Shown here piece after piece: positions 8,915-11,086 of a stretch of 20,808 nt of DNA (positions within the stretch are counted from its first letter, which is position 1; each line of letters starts with the position of its first letter). A model generated the notes under the pieces. It was not told where the DNA came from and did no database searches. It was given only the letters and a program-made list of their open reading frames with translations. A program made the position numbers and the translations under genes. The stretch is taken from IMG/VR virus record IMGVR_UViG_3300047323_000503, positions 1 to 20,808 of that record; one strand, given 5' to 3'. This DNA comes from a virus.

Positions 8915-8939
8915 GCCCCGCGGCTACCAGTCGCGGGGC
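8915..8939. terminator. Bidirectional terminator hairpin
   Basis: GCCCCGCG at 8915-8922 pairs perfectly with CGCGGGGC at 8932-8939 (9-nt loop). It lies exactly between the convergent stops at 8902 (plus) and 8963 (minus) and is symmetrical, so it can serve both strands. Confidence 0.8.
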
Positions 8940-8962
8940 AGGAAGGGAGGGGAGGGAACGTG

Positions 8963-9172
8963 TCAGGACTTCGACTGTGGGGCGATCTTCGCCACCCACT
9001 CGCGGGTGAAGCCGGTCAGCTTCGCCATGTGCGACGGGCCCTTCCCTTCGGCGCGCCCCTTCACGAGCAGGTCGCGCAGCTCTTCGTCAGCGCGCTTGAA
9101 GGCTTCCTCAGCCCGAGCGCGCTTCTTCGCTGCGGCCTGAATCTCCATGTCGAGGGTGTCCATGCAGTACAT
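8963..9172 (-). CDS. Small coiled-coil/HTH protein, about 69 aa
   Basis: Minus-strand gene between a shared terminator and a divergent promoter region. A charged helix (KKRARAEEAFKRADEELRDLLV) is followed by an HTH-like segment (MAKLTGFTREWVAKI) at the C-terminus. The start is uncertain: in-frame ATGs lie at 9277, 9250, 9172, 9163 and 9148 (5' ends), and none has a clear ribosome site. I choose 9172 because the longer forms would overlap the divergent fusion gene and its promoter. A helix-plus-HTH layout is shared with the minus-strand gene at 19776-20021. A regulator of the adjacent divergent gene is plausible but unproved. Confidence 0.75.
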   Translation of the reverse strand: MYCMDTLDMEIQAAAKKRARAEEAFKRADEELRDLLVKGRAEGKGPSHMAKLTGFTREWVAKIAPQSKS

Positions 9173-9200
9173 CGTGCCATGGATTGTCACGACCGCGCTA

Positions 9201-9253
9201 CGCGAACGCGCATTGTGGTCGCGAATCTCGACCGCGAACGCTATTCTCATCTC
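9201..9253 (+). promoter_or_regulatory. Leaderless promoter and candidate operator of the fusion gene
   Basis: TATTCT at 9242-9247 fits the TANNNT -10 consensus and ends six bases before the ATG at 9254, the spacing expected when transcription begins at the start codon. No Shine-Dalgarno sequence precedes that ATG. No good -35 is visible. The 9-bp sequence CGCGAACGC occurs at 9201-9209 and 9233-9241, 32 bp apart (three helical turns), the second copy touching the -10. The palindrome TCGCGA at 9219-9224 lies between them. Confidence 0.55.
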
Positions 9254-11086
9254 ATGCAGAGCGATTCCAGCCCTCATCCCTCGTCACTCCTGCGCGCCTT
9301 CCGGGCAAACCCGGACCGCCTCGACGCCCAGCGCAACCTCGCCAAGCACCTCCCCCTCCACTTCCCGATGCGCCGCCTGGAACGTGATGCCCCGACGGCG
9401 CAGCTGATGACAGTCGAAGAGAAGCGCCCCGTGGGCTGGCTCCCGCTCTGGCCGTACCTCTACCGCGCATACGACGCCGAGCTTCGACCGCTGTACATCG
9501 GCATCAGCAGCTGCTCACCCACCCGGCTCGACAATCACCGACGCCAGTCGGCGTGGTGGCCGCTGGCCGAGTACATCGCCATATCCGCCTATAGCACCGC
9601 CCGCGCGGTGGAAGAGGCGGAGCGTGCGGCCCTGCTGCACGAGCAGCCCCGCTTCAACAGGCGCGGGCTGCGCGGCCCGGCGAACCTCTCGATCCACGCT
9701 CACGGCGACCCGGAAGTAGCGGCAGCCCACTTGTTTCGCCAGGCGTCACCCCAGTTCGTGGCCGCCCTCGCGGACCTACTCGCACAGCCCGAGCGCTTCC
9801 CGCAGCCGACGCCGCCTCCGCCTGCCCGGTTCGCCTTGGCCCCCATGACCACCTCCACCAGCAAGGAGGACACCTTGACCACAGCGCTCGACCGTGCGCG
9901 TCAGCTCCTTGACCAGCCGCCGGCCGCCGTGCTTCCCGGCCAGCTCGCAGCACCCACCGGACCCCGCATCGGCTCCCTGTTCACCGGGACCGGCGTCTTC
10001 GACCTGGCCGTGATGGACGTGTTCGGCGGCGAGACCGTATGGCACTCCCAGTACGAGCCGCCCGACAGGAAGGGCCGGCCCGATACCAACCAGTACGCGG
10101 CAAAGATCCTCGCCCACCATTGGCCTGACGTTCCCAACCTCGGCGACATCACCGCCATCGACTGGGACGACGTCCTCGCCAAATACGGGCCTGTCGACAT
10201 CATCATCGGCGGCTTCCCGTGCACCGACGTCTCCACCGCCGGCGAGCGTGCCGGACTCACCTCCGAAACCCGCTCCGGCCTGTGGTCCCACATGGCCCAG
10301 GCAATCTCCATCCTCAAACCCGACCTGGTGGTTATCGAAAATGTCGAAGGGCTCCTCTCGGCGAAAGCTTCCAGCAACCTGGAACCCTGCCCGTACTGCG
10401 TGGGAGACGGACACGATCAGCCTCCACTGCGGGCACTTGGAGCCGTACTTGGAGACCTGGCCGTCCTCGGGTTCGATGCGGAATGGCAGGTGCTGGCCGC
10501 GTCCGAGGTCGATGCCGCCCACAAGCGCAAGCGCGTCATCATCTACGCCTGGCCGTCTGATGCCGACCCCGCGAACATCGGACACCAATGGGGCGGGGGC
10601 GCACGGCGACGGGGGCATGGATCTACGGACCGCGGTCTCACTGCTGCCCACACCGACAGCTTCATTCCCGGGAACGGCAGCGAACTTCCGGCCGGATGGA
10701 ACTCCATACAGCGAGGGGTACGGAATGACGCTCCTCGATGCAGTGCGACTTCTCCCGACGCCGACAGCCTCCGACGGCGAGCGGACATCCTCGACCTACG
10801 GCCGGGGCAACCCGACCTTGACTGGGGCGATTACGGACCCGCCATCCGACGGTGGGAAGCCACCCTCGGACGGCCCGTCCCCTGGCCCACTGACGCTCTG
10901 GGACGACTGACCCCCGTCTTCACCGAATGGCACATGGGCTACCCCGACGGCTGGGTCACCTGCACCCCCGGACTCACCCGCAACGCCATGCTCCGCGCCC
11001 TCGGAAACGGGGCTGTGCCGCTCCAGATGTCTGTCGGCATCCAGCTCCTCCGTGAGCGGGCCAACGGCATGCAGGCCGCCGCGTGA
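9254..11086 (+). CDS. GIY-YIG nuclease fused to C5-cytosine DNA methyltransferase, 610 aa
   Basis: One open frame joins two enzyme domains. Residues 62-137 are GIY-YIG: Y68-L-Y70, Y81-I-G83, R91, E123 and N135, the complete set of catalytic positions. A Pro-rich linker (about 175-235) leads to a Dcm-type methyltransferase: motif I FTGTG (243-247), motif IV GGFPC with nucleophile C323, motif VI E362-N-V, a CPYC insertion (379-382), motif VIII around Q412 and KRKR, and GNGAV (584-588). It would methylate cytosine at C5; the first domain could nick or cut DNA. The ATG at 9254 is chosen for its leaderless promoter; the open frame back to 8960 overlaps the minus-strand gene. Between residues 435 and 525 another frame carries family-like sequence (see findings). 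An internal ribosome site precedes the second domain. Gene fusion or read-through of two genes are the alternatives. Confidence 0.85.
   Translation: MQSDSSPHPSSLLRAFRANPDRLDAQRNLAKHLPLHFPMRRLERDAPTAQLMTVEEKRPVGWLPLWPYLYRAYDAELRPLYIGISSCSPTRLDNHRRQSAWWPLAEYIAISAYSTARAVEEAERAALLHEQPRFNRRGLRGPANLSIHAHGDPEVAAAHLFRQASPQFVAALADLLAQPERFPQPTPPPPARFALAPMTTSTSKEDTLTTALDRARQLLDQPPAAVLPGQLAAPTGPRIGSLFTGTGVFDLAVMDVFGGETVWHSQYEPPDRKGRPDTNQYAAKILAHHWPDVPNLGDITAIDWDDVLAKYGPVDIIIGGFPCTDVSTAGERAGLTSETRSGLWSHMAQAISILKPDLVVIENVEGLLSAKASSNLEPCPYCVGDGHDQPPLRALGAVLGDLAVLGFDAEWQVLAASEVDAAHKRKRVIIYAWPSDADPANIGHQWGGGARRRGHGSTDRGLTAAHTDSFIPGNGSELPAGWNSIQRGVRNDAPRCSATSPDADSLRRRADILDLRPGQPDLDWGDYGPAIRRWEATLGRPVPWPTDALGRLTPVFTEWHMGYPDGWVTCTPGLTRNAMLRALGNGAVPLQMSVGIQLLRERANGMQAAA
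9863..9877 (+). promoter_or_regulatory. Internal ribosome site and TTG start before the methyltransferase domain
   Basis: AAGGAGGA at 9863-9870 is followed five bases after its GGAGG core by an in-frame TTG (9875-9877, codon 208). An in-frame ATG at 9845 (codon 198) lies just upstream. Translation from the TTG would give a free methyltransferase of about 403 residues. This is the strongest Shine-Dalgarno match inside the gene. Confidence 0.6.

Follow-up and report, generated by a model that had tools for sequence, protein, structure and literature searches.

The 610-residue open reading frame (ORF) described here, in which a GIY-YIG nuclease domain precedes a C5-cytosine methyltransferase (MTase), probably arose recently, by the in-frame joining of two actinophage cassettes that move independently of each other, and is so far without a second example; one cassette would be a regulated small GIY-YIG nuclease gene with a divergent HTH gene, the other an orphan phage C5-MTase gene. 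The ORF lies in a 20,808 bp stretch of viral DNA (hereafter the window), which is a complete IMG/VR record and a fragment of a viral genome. The genes around it are RecE-like, RecT-like, a replication initiator, a DnaC-like loader and a DnaB-like helicase; the window reads as the early/replication region of a high-GC phage, and as that of an actinophage by its relatives. The original prediction, that a single frame holds both a GIY-YIG and a C5-MTase domain, was borne out, as the frame is uninterrupted from 9254 to 11086 and both domains are matched within it (Table 1). Both halves are real genes beyond chance; that their joining is more than chance is doubtful.

Table 1. Features of the fused ORF and its surroundings (positions in the window)
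Feature	Position	Strand	Basis or remark
Cassette common to IMGVR_UViG_3300036835_000374 (L082/L087): divergent HTH gene and GIY-YIG gene	8933..9835	.	68.6% nucleotide identity
Small coiled-coil/HTH protein, divergent	8963..9163	-	Start codon inferred; HTH match weak
TATTCT, -10-like element	9242..9247	+	6 nt 5′ of ATG 9254; kept in L082
Fused ORF, GIY-YIG nuclease and C5-MTase, 610 aa	9254..11086	+	Stop-free frame, domain matches
GIY-YIG nuclease core, residues 66–136 (Y70, Y81, R91, H95, E123, N135)	9449..9661	+	PHROG, alignment, fold model
Junction/linker	9836..9874	+	Standalone relative stops about here
Shine-Dalgarno AAGGAGG for MTase	9863..9869	+	5 nt before TTG; kept in L113
C5-MTase from internal TTG, 403 aa	9875..11086	+	Aligns with annotated Darolandstone gene 38 start
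MTase N-terminal core, motifs I–VIII, residues 238–432	9965..10549	+	PF00145, alignment, structural match
Nested +1-frame ORF, 189 aa, LPTP repeats, phrog_1008-like	10341..10910	+	ATG inside motif VI
MTase C-terminal core, motifs IX–X, residues 520–600	10811..11053	+	PHROG, alignment, fold model

The nearest relative opens with an identical MQSD at the ATG corresponding to 9254, which makes this ATG the likely start of the fused ORF. A mechanical upstream extension of the frame to GTG 8960 was discarded, since it overlaps the divergent gene and the relative begins at MQSD. The -10-like element beside ATG 9254 suggests that the transcript may be leaderless.

Residues 69–140 of the nuclease half match PHROG endonuclease families (E about 1e-12 to 1e-13), with the catalytic Y, Y, R, E and N in the order of the GIY-YIG superfamily, and all 28 aligned relatives share Y70, R71, Y81, G83, R91, H95, W101, E123, P132 and N135. 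The Pfam GIY-YIG model (PF01541) matches 25 of the 28 family members, though not the window's own; the GIY-YIG part of the window had no Pfam match, nor any identifiable DNA-binding motifs of the homing type. In the predicted structure, confidence is high at the core (pLDDT about 88–95 at residues 71–130), and the structural search ranks UvrC GIY-YIG domains first (prob 1.00, TM by target 0.64, E only 0.08), UvrC being also matched by sequence profile (E 0.001); as modelled, the nuclease half appears to adopt the GIY-YIG fold, at a weak structural E-value. Among type II restriction enzymes with the GIY-YIG fold, the original prediction had named Eco29kI; no relation to R.Eco29kI or Hpy188I emerged from PDB sequence searches, the best 50 Foldseek matches listed or PADLOC, and the nuclease half matched no restriction-enzyme model in the tests made.

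Relatives of the nuclease are either standalone or bear HTH-, Phd-, GntR- or MerR-type parts, and the nuclease most likely acts alone, as do these unlinked relatives. The GIY-YIG gene of IMGVR_UViG_3300036835_000374 is 64% identical over 194 aa and shares the divergent HTH gene and promoter region, but it has its own stop codon and is followed by a replication gene instead of an MTase. In Streptomyces and related chromosomes (L090–L112, L143–L146), single GIY-YIG domains carry GntR, MerR/HTH or Phd-like C-terminal parts, and such proteins form an actinobacterial family that has been described only loosely. A small DNA-binding gene (coiled-coil/HTH or Phd antitoxin) repeatedly adjoins this type of GIY-YIG gene, often divergently, as at 8963–9254 of the window, 4706–5000 of L082, in L085 (phage Cornie gp25/gp24) and in L083; the two possibly form a regulated nuclease cassette.

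The MTase half is matched by PF00145 (E 9e-26) and phrog_363 (E 1.5e-55), and, in the structural search, M.HhaI matches the fusion model best (E 3.6e-12). Motifs I–X are complete, among them I, IV (PC, with C323), VI (ENV, with E362), VIII, IX and X, and G320/P322/C323, E362/N363/V364, H423/R425/R427 and G584/N585 are near-invariant in aligned MTase relatives. The catalytic residues named in the original prediction (Y70, Y81, R91, E123 and N135 of the nuclease; C323 and E362 of the MTase) are all correct, each being invariant or nearly so in relatives. Between motifs VIII and IX, where a C5-MTase would have its folded target-recognition domain, MTase-frame residues 443–502 have a pLDDT below 50 and are probably disordered; coding constraint in this stretch is stronger in the +1 frame.

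The nearest MTase relative, L113, is 69–73% identical in the N-terminal core, and its upstream DNA is unrelated to that of the window and holds no GIY-YIG gene. The leader CACCTCCACCA(G/A)CAAGGAGGACACCTTGACC is common to both, as is CACCTCCACCARCAAGGAGGACACCTTGACC, an ideal Shine-Dalgarno sequence 5 nt ahead of the TTG, and the annotated start of the Darolandstone MTase corresponds to residue 208 of the fusion. With the Shine-Dalgarno/TTG pair kept in L113 and the Darolandstone start at the TTG, the MTase probably starts by itself at 9875, and on these comparisons the MTase half belongs with the orphan phage MTases and has kept a start signal of its own. It most likely marks phage (and host) DNA against restriction, as orphan phage MTases do. 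The actinophage orphan C5-MTases Streptomyces phage Darolandstone gene 38 and mycobacteriophage Tweety gene 72 belong to the same family and have the same motif order, with Darolandstone also sharing the start, but both are standalone and lack a GIY-YIG part.

The border between the two halves is sharp. DNA homology to L082/L087 spans the divergent HTH gene, the common promoter region and the nuclease gene and ends at 9835; in L082/L087 no more than about 10 codons separate PPPPARFA from the stop of the nuclease ORF, and the replication gene comes next. From about 9848 onwards, the window matches not the nuclease cassette but the leader of another gene, the MTase. In Streptomyces (L106) the same GIY-YIG gene survives as a decayed remnant, whose ending at this same point, PPPPARFTDEA-stop, helps to place the original 3′ end. 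The linker is Pro-rich, and the junction can be crossed without a stop in just one of the three frames. The frame is open for at least 200 codons upstream of motif I in 16 of 93 MTase loci; such open frames are frequent above these high-GC MTase genes, so that two genes abutting in frame is in itself unsurprising. Assembly error, which the original prediction had named as a possible source of the frame, stays a rival, as a chimeric contig or as a stop lost by error at 9836–9874. We regard it as highly improbable: the junction comes from a single fragmentary record and has no independent copy, but base composition is even across it, codon-position GC is in phase with the ORF throughout, and it is a clean module border of the kind usual in phage mosaics.

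A search for the same domain pair in other phages, suggested by the original prediction, returned no second fusion. Among 986 phage records with the MTase, none covered the fusion to 80%, and in the viral-contig matches (80 viral loci) no MTase match begins before residue 178. The fusion query was matched in 102 of 393 Streptomyces genomes, nearly always via the MTase half, and this nuclease type was present in 20; no locus joining the two was found in these 393 genomes, which are a sample with short flanks, and the MTase is absent from all 23 Streptomyces GIY-YIG loci. When all ORFs of 113 MTase loci (898 kb) were compared with a nuclease-family profile, one nuclease emerged, in L019, where it is a separate gene about 3 kb upstream of the MTase. 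Two possible fusions, G140 and G280, with matches given from residues 123 and 150, were re-fetched and dismissed, having no GIY-YIG domain and real starts at 208 and 237. The profile searches covered the 393 Streptomyces and 392 order-level genomes; earlier contig scans for GIY-YIG relatives were insensitive (none came from the first, and nothing but two MTase pieces from the second), and a mixed 36-row alignment misplaced the GIY-only rows and was kept out of folding. Nuclease and MTase thus share a single frame in the window, as a type IIC or other one-chain restriction-modification (R-M) enzyme would require, and are unlinked in every homologue examined, which is one half of an outcome that the original prediction had named as refuting it, an assembly error being the other half.

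Taken together, the end of homology at 9835, the relative's stop, the MTase's own Shine-Dalgarno sequence and TTG, and the lack of any other fusion argue for a chance join of two genes. Recombination at the module border (about 9836–9850) would have taken away the last codons and stop of the nuclease gene, and the frames of the two cassettes would have matched by chance. Initiation at ATG 9254 would then give a 610-residue nuclease–linker–MTase chain, no stop being met before the MTase, and initiation at TTG 9875 a free 403-residue MTase. The likeliest picture is a free orphan MTase together with a fusion of uncertain usefulness. Counting against a chance join are the intact catalytic residues of both domains and the Pro-rich linker, which would suit a bifunctional chain.

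These same features bear on whether the ORF encodes a natural one-chain (type IIC-like) R-M enzyme, whose MTase would shield its sites from a linked GIY-YIG domain that cuts them in the unmethylated state. RM.Eco29kI, an engineered fusion with GIY-YIG ahead of the C5-MTase in one chain with a short linker, cuts and methylates, retaining 80% of the MTase and a third of the nuclease activity (PMC3039593); as it is active in both roles, the 610-residue chain could be active in both halves. RM.Eco29kI was, however, engineered from a cognate R-M pair, whereas the partners in the window are no known pair and the nuclease is not Eco29kI-like, in sequence or fold, by the tests made. GIY-YIG domains are also linked to an MTase in recurrent Lactobacillales fusions, but those combine a Slx1-type GIY-YIG with a different MTase family (COG4123), and the MTase is N-terminal (PMC1564403). 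What stands of the one-chain claim is the shared frame and the working engineered precedent of the same domain order; functional coupling is unsupported, with the partners unlinked everywhere else examined, the MTase retaining its own start, and no sign of a common target for the two halves. We therefore consider this reading weakly supported and unlikely.

It is likewise improbable that a selfish or freely mobile GIY-YIG cassette landed beside the MTase and left the fusion as a functionless by-product, the chain of which may be degraded. Single GIY-YIG fusions may reflect the mobility of the domain (a caution in PMC1564403), and the relatives adjoin unrelated genes (relaxase, Phd antitoxin and HTH genes), but the window's nuclease lacks identifiable homing-type motifs and no otherwise intact gene was seen interrupted. 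Should the fusion be functional, it would stand as a naturally occurring equivalent of engineered RM.Eco29kI, assembled from non-cognate phage parts; as it stands, it is an example of phage mosaicism making bifunctional ORFs by chance, and a caution that one-off fusions should not be taken for enzymes.

Most of the remaining interest lies with a putative gene nested in the +1 frame of the MTase, which may matter more than the fusion: it would be a long same-strand overlapping gene in a widespread MTase family, with codon-level evidence at dozens of loci, and would alter the annotation of these MTases and ideas on how DNA specificity is built. The 189-residue product matches phrog_1008 'DNA methyltransferase' (E 6e-22). 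In the spacer, the +1-frame LPTP repeats are better conserved than the MTase-frame reading, and in 30 of 34 loci they lie +1 to the N-terminal core with motif IX back in phase 0. DNA alignments place substitutions at MTase third positions in the N-terminal core and at LPTP third positions in the spacer, where window and L114 differ at 34, 15 and 9 of 89 LPTP positions 3, 1 and 2, respectively; this switch is clear in most, not all, of 13 pairs, L114–L003 being an exception.

Both frames are stop-free in 28 of 29 spacers, against about 4 expected from synonymous resampling, and over residues 363–432 the +1 frame of 34 loci contains 1 stop where 33 ± 5 would be expected. Because the loci share ancestry, such counts do not represent independent events, and MTase homology was the basis on which the alignments were picked. 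Synonymous variation in the MTase collapses at residues 375–414 (V383 is GTG in 23/23, A403 GCC in 63/65 and G406 GGG in 76/77). Motif VI (E-N-V) is spelled so as to create a +1 ATG in 35 loci, and in most cases GGTGGTGATCGA(A/G)A, which departs from a perfect Shine-Dalgarno sequence at one position, stands ahead of it. ATG 10476, considered as the nested start, was replaced by ATG 10341 because the synonymous constraint extends upstream of 10476. These codon patterns indicate a clear coding constraint on the nested ORF among relatives. A pair of compensating frameshifts in the spacer of the MTase, suspected because LPTP is in frame in L014, was rejected in view of the phase pattern shared by those 30 loci; L114 also reads the same frame as the window in the spacer, against a frameshift error.

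The nested ORF occurs at the same place in about 34 related loci (for example L113, L114, L119, L003 and L020), with an SD-like GGTGGTGATC, and the nested peptide is present in 144 phage records; in Darolandstone the frame is open yet unannotated. In Samy and in loci such as L011 and L124 the same +1 frame runs on into motifs IX–X as a second MTase gene. The split C5-MTases M.AquI (PMC3404938) and Samy genes 49/50 are like the window in that a second reading frame holds part of the variable region, and the nested product resembles the second subunit of split MTases. The window differs from them in that its +1 ORF stops at 10910, before MTase-frame motif IX, and lacks motifs IX–X, which remain in the MTase frame. 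Tentatively, and as a possibility rather than a probability, the locus may make three products (the fusion, the free MTase from TTG 9875 and the 189-residue +1-frame protein), with the nested gene, which is conserved among MTases of actinophages and prophages, supplying the target-recognition part in trans to an MTase whose own frame offers nothing but a disordered linker from motif VIII to motif IX. The literature searched, a partial coverage and so weak evidence of novelty, held no description of the nested gene, and a DNA search with the spacer alone gave no match.

A minority of MTases (L014, L019, L088/L089 and L013) have the conventional layout, with the LPTP repeats and both catalytic cores in one frame. 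LPTP modules such as ASDGEKGGPNQRGSSGDLMLPSAV appear shuffled between MTases (spacers of L114, L119, L003, L116, L011 and L014), which suggests modular recombination of the variable region.
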